A stretch of DNA of 7,996 nt from Nitrospinota bacterium (GCA_003696125.1 RFHZ01000504.1:1-7996); one strand, 5' to 3'; counted from the first letter of the stretch, positions 11-7,996 are shown. Translations and numbers: made by a program. Notes: generated by a model from the sequence alone, not told the origin.

Positions 11-57
11 AAGTAACGAGTAACGAGTAACGAGTAATGAGTGATGAGGACTGAGGA
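11..57 (-). repeat. Heptamer repeat array A
   Basis: Six consecutive 7-base units plus a partial one. On the minus strand they read AGTCCTC, ATCACTC, ATTACTC, GTTACTC, GTTACTC, GTTACTT. Units differ in the first four bases and, except for the last, end in CTC. The unit types and their order match arrays B and C elsewhere in the window, but this copy is in the opposite orientation. Its AGTCCTC end runs directly into the palindrome at 57-80. The array is non-coding: a 7-base period shifts frame at every unit. Confidence 0.85.
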
Positions 58-80
58 GGGGCGCAGCGCGCTGCGCCCCT
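57..80. repeat. 24-base perfect palindrome (REP-like)
   Basis: Two 12-base arms, AGGGGCGCAGCG and its exact complement, meet with no spacer, giving a very GC-rich self-complementary element. On a single strand the central bases would open as a loop. No T-run follows on either strand, so it is not a textbook intrinsic terminator. The position at the end of heptamer array A, downstream of the minus-strand secreted-protein gene, suggests a dispersed intergenic palindrome of the REP type. That class assignment is inference. Confidence 0.75.
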
Positions 81-233
81 ACCAGACGCCTGTGCCTCTG
101 TGCCTGGTCTTTACCTCCTGGCTTTTAGGGCCTTTATTATCACATGCCCGGGGTGATGTCAAGGCAGAGGTGGGAGAGAAGATGAGGTCAAGAGGAGGGG
201 TAGTGGGGAAGGAAAAGGAGAAGAAAACCTGGT
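81..233 (-). other. Intergenic region, pyrimidine-rich 3' flank of secreted-protein gene
   Basis: No gene is seen here. Just beyond the stop codon of the minus-strand gene, about 175-230 is almost pure purine on the plus strand, so the transcript would be C/U-rich and poor in G. This composition is typical of Rho-utilisation stretches. A very small inverted repeat (AAACC/GGTTT) followed by TCTTCT lies at the stop codon, but its loop is too short to be convincing. Termination in this region is an inference from composition only. Confidence 0.3.
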
Positions 234-824
234 TTAATGACTATAACCAGAGAAGAACTGAACCCCGTCGGCAGTCAGATCGACGGGAGGGTTGGCCAGG
301 GGATGGGTGGGGTCGGTATCGGTAGGAGAGGTGGTGGTGTTAAAGGTATCCGGTCTACAGTCTCCACTGACATCATCGCCCCAGGGACCGCGACTGTATA
401 CGGCAAAGAAGCCGGCGTCGGTAGTGCCTACCGCCGTGTGCATGCTGACGATCGGTCCGCTGATAACATCGATGGGAGCAGAGATCTCCCGTAAGAGGGT
501 GACTGCATTGCCATTACAGTCAGTAGCGAAGTTCCCGACAAAGATGGCATCGGTAATACTCGCTCCTACCGGTACCCAGTACACCTCATAGAGGGTGAAG
601 GGATCGGCGAGCGCTCCCTTGACCAGGACCCGTACCCTTCCCGATCCGTTGACCATGATCATCCCCTGGGAGAGGGAATCCCCTCCGCAGGTACCGGTGT
701 AACTCGTCTCTGCACAACGCACCAGTTGGGTAACCCAGATGGCCTGGGCTTCCGGCGTGAAGAAAAAGGTTACCAGAACGAGACCAAGAACCAAGAAGCC
801 GAGAGAGAAACGATGTGTAGGCAT
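234..824 (-). CDS. Secreted protein of unknown function, four cysteines in the mature part
   Basis: The 196-residue protein begins with a clear Sec signal peptide: basic MPTHR, a hydrophobic core of about residues 7-22, and a likely signal peptidase I site after AQA (residues 26-28). The mature part has four cysteines (37, 46, 103, 156), which could form two disulfides in the periplasm or outside the cell. Residues 60-107 have an alternating beta-strand look, with a GRVRVLVKGAL strand, a TLYEVYWVPVG strand and a TDCNGNA turn. The C-terminal quarter is rich in Thr, Pro and Asp. The start chosen is the second ATG: GGAGG lies 5 bases before it, while an ATG 12 bases upstream overlaps that same ribosome site. 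It is on the same strand as the cytochrome genes but separated from them by 179 bases containing array B. I do not recognise the family and assign no function. Confidence 0.75.
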   Translation of the reverse strand: MPTHRFSLGFLVLGLVLVTFFFTPEAQAIWVTQLVRCAETSYTGTCGGDSLSQGMIMVNGSGRVRVLVKGALADPFTLYEVYWVPVGASITDAIFVGNFATDCNGNAVTLLREISAPIDVISGPIVSMHTAVGTTDAGFFAVYSRGPWGDDVSGDCRPDTFNTTTSPTDTDPTHPLANPPVDLTADGVQFFSGYSH

Positions 825-829
825 ATACA

Positions 830-834
830 CCTCC
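830..834 (-). promoter_or_regulatory. Ribosome binding site deciding the start at 824
   Basis: GGAGG on the minus strand with a 5-base gap to the ATG at 824. The first in-frame ATG (836) partly overlaps this site, so translation from there would lack a Shine-Dalgarno sequence at the right distance. Confidence 0.7.
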
Positions 835-916
835 ATCCAGAGAGACAGGGCTTCCTCTCCTTATCCTTCCCTTCTCTCTCTTCTCGGCACATGGACAGGA
901 AAACTTTAGTCATCTC

Positions 917-1009
917 AGTCCTCAGTCCTCATCACTCATTACTCATTTTACTCAGTCCTCAGTCCTCATTACTCATTACTCGTTACTCATTACTCGTTAC
1001 TCATCACTT
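917..1009 (+). repeat. Heptamer repeat array B
   Basis: Thirteen tandem units, twelve of 7 bases and one of 9 (ATTTTACTC at 945-953). The order is AGTCCTC x2, ATCACTC, ATTACTC, the 9-base unit, AGTCCTC x2, ATTACTC x2, GTTACTC, ATTACTC, GTTACTC, ATCACTT. The final unit contains the stop codon of the minus-strand diheme cytochrome gene (TCA at 1004-1006), so the array begins exactly where that gene ends. It shares unit types and order with arrays A and C. Translated by chance it gives HSLLIT/YSLLVT-like peptides that should not be annotated. Confidence 0.9.
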
Positions 1010-1894
1010 GGCCAGCACCTTATGCCTGATCGGGGGCAGGGAGCGGAGATAGACAGCAATGGCGGTGAGATCGGCTTCGCTGAGGTGCCGGTACCCCTGC
1101 TCGATCATCTCTGCCATCAGTCCCTGCGCATCATCCCCGTCTGGTTTGAAGCCGGTCTGCAGGAACCAGACGATATCCGGGATGCTCCAGGTACCGATAC
1201 CGGTGGCCTCATCCGGGGTGATGTTGGGAGCCAGTTGTCCCTCAGGACCATCAACCGAACCGGCCAGGAAGAGTTCTTCTTTAGGTCCACCCAAAAAGTT
1301 ACGTGGAGTATGGCACTCTCCACAGTGACCCAAAGCCGTTACCAGGTATGCTCCCCGGTTCCACTCTGCCGAGCGCCGGGGATCGGGTTGAAAGGGACCG
1401 GGACGGAAGTAGAGCCATTTCCATCCGCGCAGTGCCGGTCGCCAGCCCAAGGGGGGAATAAGCTCCGGAGCCCTGTTCTCCTGCCTGATAGGGGGGACAG
1501 AGAAGAGGTAGGCTTTCAGATCGAGGAGATCCTGCCTGGTCATGCGGGTAAAGGAGGTATAGGGGAAGACGGGAAAGTAGTGCTTCCCGTCCGGTCCCTT
1601 CCCTTCGGTCATCGCCCTGATAAAGTCGGCATCGCTCCAGCGCCCGATACCGGTCACCGGATCAGGGGTGATGTTGGTGCTGTACACAACCCCAAAGGGG
1701 GTTTTCAGGGGGCGTCCCCCGGCCAGGAACGCCCCCTTCTTCGGATCGGTATGACAGCCACACCCGCCACTGGCCCGGAAGAGGTATTCCCCTCGTTGCA
1801 CCGCTGATGCCTCCTGAGCCAATGCCGGACAGGCAGGAGACCAGAGCAAGACAAAGAGGAAAAAGAGCCGGTACCACATCTTCCCACGCATCAT
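1004..1894 (-). CDS. Diheme class I cytochrome c, periplasmic
   Basis: The 296-residue protein has an N-terminal signal peptide (MMRGKMWYR, then a hydrophobic stretch, probable cleavage after ALA at 24-26) and two cytochrome c domains. Domain 2 has a normal heme site, CGECH at residues 191-195. Domain 1 has CGCH at 45-48, one residue shorter than CxxCH. The domains are an internal duplication: NITPD-x-x-TGIG-x-W occurs near residues 74-86 and again near 224-236. Likely axial methionines are Met118 in domain 1 and Met260 or Met263 in domain 2. The layout resembles the cytochrome subunits of membrane alcohol/sugar dehydrogenases, but those usually carry three hemes, and no dehydrogenase gene is adjacent. 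It follows the cytochrome c' gene closely and is probably cotranscribed with it. The start is uncertain: no good ribosome site is visible, and a GTG at 1933 (9 bases after the upstream stop) or an ATG at 1879 are alternatives. Translational coupling is likely. Confidence 0.88.
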   Translation of the reverse strand: MMRGKMWYRLFFLFVLLWSPACPALAQEASAVQRGEYLFRASGGCGCHTDPKKGAFLAGGRPLKTPFGVVYSTNITPDPVTGIGRWSDADFIRAMTEGKGPDGKHYFPVFPYTSFTRMTRQDLLDLKAYLFSVPPIRQENRAPELIPPLGWRPALRGWKWLYFRPGPFQPDPRRSAEWNRGAYLVTALGHCGECHTPRNFLGGPKEELFLAGSVDGPEGQLAPNITPDEATGIGTWSIPDIVWFLQTGFKPDGDDAQGLMAEMIEQGYRHLSEADLTAIAVYLRSLPPIRHKVLAK

Positions 1895-1942
1895 GAGCAA
1901 AAGGCGGCAGAAATCTCTGCTGCCCTTCTCCACTCTTCAACG

Positions 1943-2422
1943 CTACTGCTGTCGTTTATAGCTTTCCTCTTTCGGCTTGCGGAACGGTTTGTGGCAGTCT
2001 CCACAGGTCCCACCCAGTTTTTTCACCTGGGCCACTATGGCCTGCATATCACCCGATTGGGCTATTTCGGCCAGCCTGGCACTCTCTTTCCCCATCGCGT
2101 CTGCCGCTGCGGTGAATTTCTCCCAGTCCTGCCAGATCTCCGGCTTGGCATCGGTTTTTCCTGCCGTAATCTCCTTCTTAAAGGCATCGGCAATCAGTTT
2201 GCTGACGAGATGGATGCCCTGGGCATGGGTGGCGATGTGGTCTGTATAGGGGAGCTTCTTCTTCAGGATATCGGCAATCGCTCCCATGTGAGCCCCGTTG
2301 GCGCGCATCAGTTTTTGGCGATAGATAATAAACGCTTCATCACTTTGGGCCTGAACGGACAGGGGGAAAAGCAACAGGGTGAAAGCGATCAGGGTAAGCA
2401 CACCGATAGACCATCGCTGCAT
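1943..2422 (-). CDS. Cytochrome c' / c-556 family protein
   Basis: The 159-residue protein has a signal peptide ending at VQA (residues 23-25) and a mature part of about 134 residues, the usual size for the cytochrome c' four-helix-bundle family. The single heme site, CGDCH, is at 140-144 near the C-terminus, as in that family. In helix 1, YRQKLM (34-39) puts Met39 where low-spin c-556 proteins carry their methionine ligand, so six-coordinate low-spin heme is more likely than a gas-binding five-coordinate c'. The start is the ATG with AGGAGG 7 bases upstream. A longer ORF reaching 2530 is rejected because its first codon lies in the -35 box of the promoter at 2502-2530. The leader of about 70 bases contains a small hairpin (GAGGAG/CTCCTC, 2451-2466). 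This is the first gene of an operon with the diheme cytochrome. A periplasmic electron-carrier role is inferred. Confidence 0.9.
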   Translation of the reverse strand: MQRWSIGVLTLIAFTLLLFPLSVQAQSDEAFIIYRQKLMRANGAHMGAIADILKKKLPYTDHIATHAQGIHLVSKLIADAFKKEITAGKTDAKPEIWQDWEKFTAAADAMGKESARLAEIAQSGDMQAIVAQVKKLGGTCGDCHKPFRKPKEESYKRQQ

Positions 2423-2429
2423 AAACCAT

Positions 2430-2435
2430 CCTCCT
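2430..2435 (-). promoter_or_regulatory. Strong ribosome binding site of the cytochrome c' gene
   Basis: AGGAGG on the minus strand, 7 bases before the ATG at 2422. Together with the promoter at 2502-2530 it fixes the start and removes a spurious N-terminal extension of 36 residues. Confidence 0.8.
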
Positions 2436-2501
2436 TTTTTTCTAAGCATTGAGGAGAGAGCTCCTCTTTCCTTCCCATTTACCGTTGATGATGAGTCAGG
2501 C

Positions 2502-2530
2502 AATATACCATGCCCTCTCCGGGGTGTCAA
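2502..2530 (-). promoter_or_regulatory. Sigma70-like promoter of the cytochrome operon
   Basis: On the minus strand, a perfect -35 TTGACA (2530-2525), a 17-base spacer and -10 TATATT (2507-2502, five of six consensus bases). Transcription would start near 2495 and run through the cytochrome c' and diheme cytochrome genes. It lies in the 171-base gap after the HDOD gene, so the cytochromes need not depend on upstream transcription. Confidence 0.75.
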
Positions 2531-2561
2531 GCAAAACCGGAGGCAGGGGAAATGAGGAGGG

Positions 2562-2586
2562 CCTGGACAGAGGGGGCACGTCCAGG
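2562..2586 (-). terminator. Possible terminator hairpin after the HDOD gene
   Basis: A perfect 7-base inverted repeat, CCTGGAC/GTCCAGG, with an 11-base loop begins 7 bases past the HDOD stop codon and ends before the cytochrome promoter. The place is right for a terminator, but C/T-mixed sequence rather than a T-run follows on the minus strand, so intrinsic termination is uncertain. Confidence 0.35.
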
Positions 2587-2593
2587 AGGAAAT

Positions 2594-3949
2594 TCAGGCA
2601 GAGAGAGGGGGACGCAGGATGGCTTTGAGCTGGGTACGGATACTTTCCGGGAAACGCTTCAGGTTTTTCTGCAATATGGGAGCGATTGTTTCTTCACAGA
2701 AGTACCGGCTCTTGTGAGGGGGGAGACCCAGCAGGGTCATGTATTCGGAGAAAAAGATCTCCGAAGGTGGGTCCTGTTGCAGGAGGATATCATGACAGAC
2801 ATGGGCGATATAGAGGATGGCGATGGCTGACCTGTACTCTGAATCGAGCCGGTCAGGAGGGGTAAACTCTGGTTCGTAATGCCGGGCAATAACCAGGTAG
2901 ATGTTCTCCGGGAGTCCCCAGGCCTGCAGCAGGTGGGCTCCGATTTGCGCATCGTCGAGTACGGCAAACAGATCCCGGATATTGGAGTATTTCCGCTGTA
3001 GGAGGAGAAGCACGATCTTCCCGATATCGTGTAACAGGCCTATGGTGGTGATCATCGATGGGGGAGCTGCCTTGCTCAGCCGGGCGATTTCGTATGCGAT
3101 GGAGGAGACCAGCAGGGAGTGGTTGAGGATCTTATACGCTTCTGGATCGCGAGGCATCACACTTCCCAGGGCATGGCTCAGGATCAGTTGATAGATGTTG
3201 TTAAATCCCAACAAGAGGACGGCACGATATACATCGGCCACTTTTTCCCGCAGTCCATAGTAGGCAGAATTGACCGTCTTTAAAACCAGGCTGGCCAGCG
3301 GGGGATCGTTCTGGATGGCCATGACCACTTCCCGTGTATCGACCGCCTCCTCTTGTAGCTTCATGGCCAGGTCGTAGGCAAAGGTGGGAAGCCTGGGGAT
3401 TTTCCGGATGATACTCTGCACGAGATCGGATCGGCTGATGTCACTCGACCGGGATCGAACGGTTGCAATATAGGAGAGCAGCTTTTCCTCTCTGTCCAGG
3501 AGATGGACCTGCTCGGACAGGGTCTTTTGCAGGAGCCTGTACAGAGAGGTTCTGGCTTTGGCGTACAGGATCGACCGGACCCGGGAGGAGAGGGAATCGA
3601 TGAGGTGGTGATCGATCCCCAGCAGCATCGATTCCTCCTGGGCACTAAGCGTACAGGCGTCAATATCAGGAGAGGAAAGGGGCAAAAATTCCCAGACATC
3701 CCCTTCTCGTAATTCGATGGACTGGGGAGACCCTCGCAGAGAGAGGGAGACCTGCATCGTTCCTCTCAGGAGGAGAAAGAAGGTGTGCGTTGTCTCCTGG
3801 TGCAGGGGAAGGCTCTGATGAGGAGAGAGCTTTTGGATCTGTCCGGCACTATAGAGGGCAGAGAGCTCTTCTTCATCGAGTCCCTGCAGAACAGCAGGAC
3901 AGGGTTTATCCTGCGTCACTACCGGGGTTGACTTGGTAAAGAGTTTCAT
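2594..3949 (-). CDS. HDOD domain protein with N-terminal cyclic-nucleotide-binding-like domain
   Basis: This 451-residue cytoplasmic protein is probably regulatory. Residues about 30-120 look like a cNMP-binding beta-barrel (HTFFLLLRGTMQVSL, then REGDVWEF). The phosphate-binding loop is degenerate: the usual GELAL and the following Arg are replaced by WEFLPL and DIDA, so binding of cAMP or cGMP is doubtful. A helical linker (about 120-165) leads to an HDOD domain (about 175-390) with the family's NSAYYG segment (227-232), His277, GLLHDIGK (304-311, HD pair 307-308), AWGLP (343-347) and RHYEPE (356-361). The position where the family often has H-x-E before the glycine reads D-A-Q (333-335), so metal-dependent phosphodiesterase activity is unlikely. 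HDOD proteins are linked to signalling, often without known catalysis. The start has AGAGAGG 8 bases upstream; a 17-residue longer ORF lacks a better site. It precedes the cytochrome operon on the same strand, separated by a hairpin and a promoter. Confidence 0.88.
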   Translation of the reverse strand: MKLFTKSTPVVTQDKPCPAVLQGLDEEELSALYSAGQIQKLSPHQSLPLHQETTHTFFLLLRGTMQVSLSLRGSPQSIELREGDVWEFLPLSSPDIDACTLSAQEESMLLGIDHHLIDSLSSRVRSILYAKARTSLYRLLQKTLSEQVHLLDREEKLLSYIATVRSRSSDISRSDLVQSIIRKIPRLPTFAYDLAMKLQEEAVDTREVVMAIQNDPPLASLVLKTVNSAYYGLREKVADVYRAVLLLGFNNIYQLILSHALGSVMPRDPEAYKILNHSLLVSSIAYEIARLSKAAPPSMITTIGLLHDIGKIVLLLLQRKYSNIRDLFAVLDDAQIGAHLLQAWGLPENIYLVIARHYEPEFTPPDRLDSEYRSAIAILYIAHVCHDILLQQDPPSEIFFSEYMTLLGLPPHKSRYFCEETIAPILQKNLKRFPESIRTQLKAILRPPLSA

Positions 3950-4141
3950 GGAACAATCCTCTCTGACCTGTCCAGTGAACCGGTTTTCGTTTCGATGCAC
4001 ACGAGAAATAGACTGCCGGGCTCATCAGGGATGTAGAGACTTTTGTTTCTGTATCGGCAAAAAGCCTCTCGCACTTTACGTACTCTTCATAAATTTTCTC
4101 CCAGGGACTCCCTCTCCCCGCTTCCCCCTTACTCACCCCTC
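3950..4141. other. Intergenic region upstream of the HDOD gene
   Basis: Together with array C and the liv promoter this forms a gap of about 346 bases between divergent genes. The HDOD promoter must lie here or further upstream on the minus strand, but I find no convincing -35/-10 pair; a TTGCCG near 4065 has no good partner. A minus-strand ORF of 76 codons (4136-3906) overlaps the HDOD start in another frame, begins at the edge of the repeat array and has no ribosome site, so I do not call it a gene. Confidence 0.5.
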
Positions 4142-4232
4142 ATTACTCCTCACTCATTACTCCTCACTCAGTCCTCAGTCCTCATTACTCATCACTCATT
4201 ACTCATCACTCGTTACTCATCACTCGTTACTC
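4142..4232 (+). repeat. Heptamer repeat array C
   Basis: Thirteen tandem units, every one exactly 7 bases and ending in CTC: ATTACTC, CTCACTC, ATTACTC, CTCACTC, AGTCCTC x2, ATTACTC, ATCACTC, ATTACTC, ATCACTC, GTTACTC, ATCACTC, GTTACTC. From the AGTCCTC pair onward the order parallels array B. A degraded copy (TTACTC) begins at 4129. The array ends 12 bases before the -35 box of the liv operon promoter. No conserved repeat/spacer pattern of the CRISPR kind is present. Confidence 0.9.
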
Positions 4233-4244
4233 AACCGTTTCGAC

Positions 4245-4295: not shown

Positions 4296-5066
4296 ATGAT
4301 CCCCGTATTTCCAGAGCATCGGTCTATGGGTACACAGGCACTCTTGGAGACGCAAAACCTCAGCAAACGTTTTGGGGGCTTGACCGCGGTCCACAGGGTC
4401 TCCCTGCGGCTCGAGCCAGGGGAGATCCGGGGGGTGATCGGACCCAATGGATCGGGCAAGACCACCCTGGTCAATCTCCTCTCCGGCCTTTACGATCCCA
4501 CAGAGGGGATGATCTTCTTTGGAGGAGAGCGGATCGATCGCCTCCGTCCCAACCTCCGTACCGCCCGCGGCATGATCCGTACCTTCCAGATTCCCAAGCT
4601 GTTTCGCCATATGACCGTCCTGGAGAATATGATGGTGCCCGCCCTTGCCGATAGCCAGCAGGCCCACAAGACAAGCATAGAAGAGGTGGAAGAGAAGGCC
4701 TGGAATCTTTTGCGCTTCGTGAAGCTCGATCACCTGGCCCGGGCCCAGGCGGCCGACCTCTCCGGTGGCCAGGCCATGCTCCTCCAGATCGCCCGCGGCT
4801 TTATGATCGAGCCGCTCAAACTCTATCTCATGGATGAACCCTTTGCCGGTGTCAACCCGGTGATCAAAGAGGTGATCATGGAATCGATCCTGACCATGAA
4901 TCGAGAGCAGGGAGTCACCTTCCTGGTGGTCAGCCATGAGATGCCGACCATCCGGCGCCTCTGCCAGAAGATCTCTGTGATGCACGAAGGAGCAATAATC
5001 GCGGAAGGGGGAATCGAAGAGGTAGCCAACGACCCGCTCGTGATCGAAGCCTATCTGGGGAGTTGA
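4296..5066 (+). CDS. livG: Branched-chain amino acid ABC transporter ATPase LivG
   Basis: One of two cytoplasmic ATPases that drive import through the LivH/LivM permeases. All ABC elements are intact in the 256-residue product: Walker A GPNGSGKTT (49-57), Q-loop Gln97 in RTFQ, signature LSGGQ (154-158), Walker B LYLMDE (175-180) and the H-loop His213 in VSHEM. The opening NLSKRFGGLTAV and the phrase MTVLEN are characteristic of LivG. Length is normal for the family. The start is uncertain: ATG 4296 has a weak purine-rich site (AAAGAGCAGGA) just upstream, while ATG 4326 gives an N-terminus closer to family length. Either fits the promoter at 4245-4274. It is the first gene of the livG-livF-livM operon; the next start is only 2 bases past this stop. 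Confidence 0.93.
   Translation: MIPVFPEHRSMGTQALLETQNLSKRFGGLTAVHRVSLRLEPGEIRGVIGPNGSGKTTLVNLLSGLYDPTEGMIFFGGERIDRLRPNLRTARGMIRTFQIPKLFRHMTVLENMMVPALADSQQAHKTSIEEVEEKAWNLLRFVKLDHLARAQAADLSGGQAMLLQIARGFMIEPLKLYLMDEPFAGVNPVIKEVIMESILTMNREQGVTFLVVSHEMPTIRRLCQKISVMHEGAIIAEGGIEEVANDPLVIEAYLGS
5057..5062 (+). promoter_or_regulatory. Ribosome binding site of livF inside the end of livG
   Basis: GGGGAG lies within the last codons of livG, 6 bases before the livF ATG at 5069. It favours ATG 5069 over an in-frame TTG at 5063 and implies translational coupling of the two ATPase subunits. Confidence 0.7.
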
Positions 5067-7863: not shown

Positions 7864-7996
7864 GAGCTTACCACTCCAGAAGTTCTTTACCGCCGAGGCT
7901 GCTGAGCATGCAGACACGCGGAGAGGAATAAAATTCCCTTTCTCTTTTCGCCTGTATCCTGTTAAAAAAAAAAAAAAAAGCGGGTAGGGACTTCGA
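7864..7996. other. Intergenic region with 16-base A tract
   Basis: No gene is supported at the right edge. An uninterrupted run of 16 A lies at 7964-7979. Before it, 7874-7926 (ACCGCCGAGGC..., then CGCGGAGAGGAA) resembles one degraded half of a GC-rich dispersed intergenic element; this likeness is from memory only. On the minus strand the A run would be a T tract, possibly the tail of a terminator for a gene beyond the window, but no hairpin is visible in the 17 bases available. Confidence 0.45.

Follow-up and report, generated by a model that had tools for sequence, protein, structure and literature searches.

Tandem arrays of seven-base units have been noted in bacterial genomes for decades, and we know of no agreed account of their origin or role. 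The DNA considered here (the window: 7,996 nucleotides, one contig of a 4.18-Mb draft genome of a Nitrospinota bacterium in 990 contigs) raises this question in a compact form, as three such arrays lie within it. An earlier note, made from the sequence of the window, had proposed that the three share an internal order and spread as copies. We asked how these arrays arose, and why they persist where they do.

All three arrays are real, A on the minus strand and B and C on the plus strand, and their previously given limits agree with ours, which were set by reading the units, to within about ten bases (Table 1). CTC recurs at 7-base spacing in runs of 6 (array A), 5 + 8 (array B) and 15 consecutive units (array C), well above chance: when the window was shuffled 500 times with its dinucleotides preserved, no run exceeded 4.

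Table 1. Arrays and neighbouring features of the window. Units are read 5' to 3' on the CTC strand: S, AGTC; c, ATCA; t, ATTA; G, GTTA, each followed by CTC.
Feature	Position	Strand	Remarks
Array A	12..56	-	S c t G G + partial GTTACT; tail exits window at base 11
REP-type palindrome GGTAGGGGCGCAGCGCGCTGCGCCCCT (anchor)	57..83	-	immediately before array A
CAGGCACAGAGGCACAGG short repeats (mosaic backbone)	86..110	-	upstream of the palindrome of array A
Array B	914..1008	+	S S c t (ATTTTACTC) S S t t G t G; two S-led blocks with ATTTTACTC as junction; palindrome not adjacent
c-type cytochrome gene	1004..1933	-	PF00034; 3' end enters tail of array B
TGA stop of c-type cytochrome gene	1004..1006	-	made by terminal partial unit of array B
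HDOD-domain gene	2594..4000	-	PF08668; on head side of array C
Array C	4130..4233	+	t CTCACTC t CTCACTC S S t c t c G c G; 14-bp superperiod
Branched-chain amino acid ABC transporter ATPase gene	4296..5066	+	PF00005, PF12399; downstream of tail of array C

A run of 16 A residues (7964-7979) lies near the right end of the window and of the contig.

The arrays are not confined to the window. Unit-based patterns gave 255 overlapping six-CTC matches in the genome, and the match-bearing contigs (the window and 40-odd others) hold at least 54 arrays that draw on a single vocabulary of AGTCCTC, ATCACTC, ATTACTC, GTTACTC and ATCCCTC. Unit order is non-random elsewhere in the genome as well, and neither outcome that the note had set as its refutation was obtained. 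Across 30 complete arrays, the mean relative position of AGTCCTC was 0.24 and that of GTTACTC 0.66, against 0.50 expected for each (0 of 20,000 within-array shuffles in both cases); AGTCCTC is the first unit in 16 of the 30 and GTTACTC the last in 18. The claim that GTTACTC comes at or near the end was thus borne out, while the claim that AGTCCTC comes first holds as a genome-wide tendency but fails in array C, where four units precede it, and array B contains another AGTCCTC block midway. Hereafter, we call the AGTCCTC end the head and the GTTACTC end the tail. On balance, we think it probable that the arrays are STRR-type heptamer tails on dispersed, non-coding intergenic elements, which spread as passengers and are tolerated at gene borders since all reading frames are closed.

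Anchors beside the array heads

When the 90 bases before each array were aligned, the left flanks fell into two conserved types, GCGCCCCTACTC and AAGGATTTACTC; the 3' flanks are variable. The first type terminates a palindrome, GGTAGGGGCGCAGCGCGCTGCGCCCCTAC (or its core, GACGCATGCGTC), and the second, in many copies, is the end of a stretch, CGCGCTACACGGAACACTTGACTATAATAAACCAGGCACAAAGG, located after the same palindrome, of which the genome contains about 32 strict full copies. Many arrays are joined at the head to a dispersed mosaic of CAGGCACA repeats and this REP-type palindrome, GTAGGGGC..GCCCCTAC. In the fetched contigs, which were partly selected for bearing arrays or palindromes, the palindrome reaches a density of 1.58 per kb within 400 bp of arrays and 0.12 per kb elsewhere, and CAGGCACA pairs 0.61 per kb near arrays and 0.009 per kb elsewhere. 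The proposal of spread as copies is supported by the shared order and the conserved left flanks, but the copied object exceeds the array and takes in the mosaic. Palindromes are also found without arrays and arrays without palindromes; arrays B and C of the window are examples of the latter, so the REP link is not required for every copy. Because the arrays draw on one vocabulary whichever of the two unrelated left flanks they follow, array and anchor can be separated. We identified no duplication of a target site for the arrays.

A promoter-like TATAAT in the type-II flank was rejected as it is not conserved among copies. At the end of contig C810 (L102 8838-8971), an inverted array duplicate includes the outer flank (TATCTAAGT / ACTTAGATA) and was set aside as probably a fold-back assembly artefact.

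The genome also has at least three resident genes for REP-associated tyrosine transposases (RAYTs), one above the curated cut-off of NF047646 (89.9 bits) and two below it (54.8 and 60.2 bits), both with the HUH motif. Two RAYT genes each hold, in frame, one of the two palindrome types of the genome, 38-39 bases past the start of the HUH motif, which ties the palindrome to this transposase family; the transposase would, we infer, move palindrome and array together.

RAYT genes with an in-frame palindrome shortly past the HUH motif lie at L275 2103-2768 (minus strand), L102 4036-4665 (plus strand) and L306-L335. Among 23 RAYT genes, nearly all homologues from unrelated families, stems reach 15 bp in the 132 nt after the motif but do not exceed 7 bp in the 132 nt that precede it (P = 5e-7), and a GTAG..CTAC stem follows the motif within these 132 nt in 8 of the 23. 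As judged from these sequences, a RAYT gene may carry its own substrate.

In this genome, one of two anchors often adjoins the AGTCCTC head, either the GTAG..CTAC palindrome of REP type or a CAGGCACAAAGGATT stretch, and the GTTACTC or ATTACT tail end meets a gene border. In the mechanism that we propose, such elements would be non-autonomous passengers that were copied round the genome. Their palindrome would probably be mobilized by the REP-associated tyrosine (HUH) transposases that the genome encodes, and the arrays would later change by two-unit (14-bp) blocks. Copies would persist at the edges of genes because the GAG strand, which is the one that an incoming reading frame meets, has TAA or TGA in every frame within about ten codons; an element inserted at a gene's 3' end would thus be nearly harmless and would provide a new stop codon.

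Stop codons and polarity at gene borders

The intergenic bias on which the earlier note had asked for a check is present: arrays lie between genes, and the few 'inside' cases are at contig ends, in frames that the CTC strand leaves open. The CTC strand is stop-free throughout, for up to 51 codons, and on the GAG strand the longest open run is 5-10 codons in any frame. When genes within 60 bases run towards a tail, the array or its edge provides the stop codon in 9 of 10 cases, the window cytochrome gene among them. Long frames (at least 150 codons) enter tails more frequently than heads, both in this genome (13 of 44 versus 3 of 41; Fisher P = 0.012) and in other genomes (29 of 144 versus 14 of 132; Fisher P = 0.032), a count weakened by the antisense position of some of these frames. 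Inverted array pairs are common at the named loci of other organisms, from several phyla, with tails outward 22 times and inward once; counted by genome, the polarity is 13 to 1 (P = 0.002). As a consequence, an incoming reading frame hits the stop-rich strand from either side.

This arrangement could reflect a host function, in which the arrays act at gene ends as bidirectional stop cassettes, halting translation in all frames while a hairpin ends or protects the transcript. The outward-facing pairs, the stops given to incoming genes and the hairpin by the head in this genome would all fit such a role. However, the distribution is rare and patchy, the three-unit form being present in 9 of 386 genomes of a domain-wide sample and in 1 of 9 within one family, and class-mates (four genomes of another family) manage without such arrays, none of the four having any. 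Furthermore, no U-run lies behind the palindrome, an Rfam search of the window gave no match, and insertion tolerance predicts the identical pattern. We consider a host function unlikely, though worth bearing in mind, and it is tolerance that would underlie the polarity.

The arrays might instead serve as regulatory repeats in 5' leaders, bound by an RNA-binding protein, as has been proposed for the TAACTGA repeats of Beggiatoaceae. Where the downstream gene is in sense, the tail lies 8-143 bases ahead of the start codon, and array C, with a gap of 63 bp to the ABC transporter start codon, is one of many such cases. Yet the orientation of arrays relative to the downstream gene is only weakly biased (22 sense, 13 antisense) and nine arrays adjoin stop codons, and we find a leader function improbable.

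Units in other organisms and the making of tails

The exact 24-mer CTCATYACTCATYACTCGTTACTC is present in at least 93 stretches, where about 0.01 would be expected in the collection by our own arithmetic under uniform base composition. The records span about eleven phyla and include Chloroflexi/Anaerolineae, Elusimicrobia, Thermodesulfovibrionales/Nitrospirae, Armatimonadota, Chlamydiae, Bacteroidales, Proteobacteria, Acidobacteria (Pyrinomonadaceae, Aridibacter), Paenibacillus, Bifidobacteriaceae and, among cyanobacteria, Richelia, Nostoc, Symploca, Sphaerospermopsis, Spirulina, Pleurocapsa and Calothrix. Many are metagenome bins, so individual names may be wrong; the cultured isolates Nostoc KVJ20 and Paenibacillus shirakamiensis also have the array vocabulary. 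In the search of relatives that the note had suggested, class-mates were array-free, and most of the vocabulary was found beyond this genome. AGTCCTC was seen in none of the arrays examined from named genomes, and the head unit may therefore be local to this genome. A search near the arrays of other phyla found neither REP palindromes nor CAGGCACA repeats, so an HUH transposase moving those arrays would need other anchors. Viral contigs held no arrays with the exact 24-mer, which leaves phage carriage unsupported.

Two lineages illustrate how such elements may behave. Nostoc sp. KVJ20 has three copies (L172, L192 and L200) of an element of ~190-240 bp that contains an inverted heptamer pair; the copies occupy different sites with different flanking DNA and differ in unit number. 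Judged by its right-end hairpin, the element looks like a non-autonomous relative of IS200/IS605. In the unrelated lineage G184, we compared four copies of a dispersed anchor ending ..CCGTGTTCCGCCGAATTGCGATTCTGCGATT. One continues as (C)CACTC-GTTACTC-GTCACTC.., and the others are followed by five CGCACTC units, by a degenerate array or by no array. In the sister genus G396, the orthologous site between genes lacks the G184 anchor and tail and bears a period-7 tail of TTCATTC, CACATTC and ACCATTC (lag 7; 0 of 400 shuffles). The anchor-and-tail plan therefore recurs, and the vocabulary can change at one site.

These observations suggest a variant in which a process common to many phyla writes, or rewrites, the tails outward from element edges, and the tails are not copied with the element. 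Its basis is the four G184 copies and the one orthologous site, across which period and outward position are constant, and we hold it to be doubtful. Were tails indeed rewritten in place, this would represent an undescribed bacterial route to short tandem repeats.

Our preferred reading, that the tails travel with dispersed elements, also has to be set against ordinary 7-bp microsatellites, growing in place from chance seeds by polymerase slippage. Whole-unit indels in period-7 arrays distinguish cyanobacterial strains (PMC4679880), and the copies of the Nostoc element vary in unit number, as slippage would have it. For this genome, a slippage origin is already contradicted by unit order and neighbour statistics. 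A polar order is common to 30 arrays, the left flanks are conserved, and array 3' ends favour certain phases (after NTNACT in 15 of 43, after NTNA in 11 of 43). Unit transitions are far from random (GTTACTC-GTTACTC, 7 versus 22 expected); adjacent identical units fall below the shuffled level, mostly past the AGTCCTC block (in tails, 64 versus 96 expected; 0 of 3,000 shuffles), and identity at lag 2 rises above it (103 versus 84, P = 0.002), in agreement with the 14-bp period of array C. Given that single-unit slippage predicts the opposite, simple 7-bp slippage was not the builder, and we give this origin very little credence; the note's preference for copying over random slippage is supported. 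False repeat joins in the assembly or binning of a 990-contig draft are scarcely credible, because even though many arrays lie at contig ends and the C810-end inverted pair resembles a fold-back, about 30 arrays are contig-internal, between genes, and the vocabulary is present in cultured isolates.

Comparison with known heptamers and REP elements

The likeness to the short tandem repeats (STRR) of filamentous cyanobacteria, which the earlier note had mentioned, is partial. Cyanobacterial STRR units are CCCCAGT, TTGGTCA and CAACAGT; the arrays described here match none of them, and the host lineage is not a filamentous cyanobacterium. What the two have in common, as far as the accessible accounts of STRRs describe them (Mazel et al. 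1990, cited in PMC4692102), is tandem 7-base units, multiple copies and a small vocabulary. Those accessible accounts say nothing of a polar order, of anchors or of a supply of stop codons.

The TAACTGA direct repeats of Beggiatoaceae, Cyanobacteria and Bacteroidetes (PMC4679880) are likewise heptamers by gene borders, patchy in distant phyla, with TAA/TGA on one strand and indels in 7-nt steps. In their type genome, a single unit is repeated 2-6 times and its stop-bearing strand has the sense of the gene downstream, whereas here several units stand in polar order, the stop-rich strand is turned towards incoming genes and dispersed anchors are attached. Neither TAACTGA nor TCAGTTA was found as a unit of the arrays of this genome. 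Xanthomonas and Nostoc have intergenic heptamer arrays as well, with GGGNATC as the unit; a Xanthomonas genome contains about 180, often by start or stop codons. GGGNATC is a G-quadruplex motif (PMC4692102), but the units here lack G-runs.

The palindrome resembles GTAG-tagged REPs and their RAYTs (PMC3733652, PMC2817692) in being short, in having GTAG at one end, in its many copies between genes and in the presence of resident RAYT genes. It departs from them in that the GTAG tag of classical REPs is unpaired (PMC3733652), whereas GTAGGGGC pairs with GCCCCTAC in most copies here (GTAG with CTAC), and in the heptamer array on one side; the accessible parts of both papers mention no heptamer array. 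REP ends are known to give flanking genes stop codons (PMC3733652).

STRR-type heptamers, TAACTGA repeats (PMC4679880), GGGNATC repeats (PMC4692102) and stop supply by REP ends (PMC3733652) are already known. In the literature open to our search, which left subscription papers outside, we found no description of this unit set and no precedent for its polar order, two-unit signal or outward rule. Heptamer arrays of the STRR-like kind are not restricted to cyanobacteria, and the polar order, the rule of head to anchor and tail to gene, the 13-to-1 outward polarity and the stop supply are constraints on any account of their origin, each testable by counts in closed genomes.
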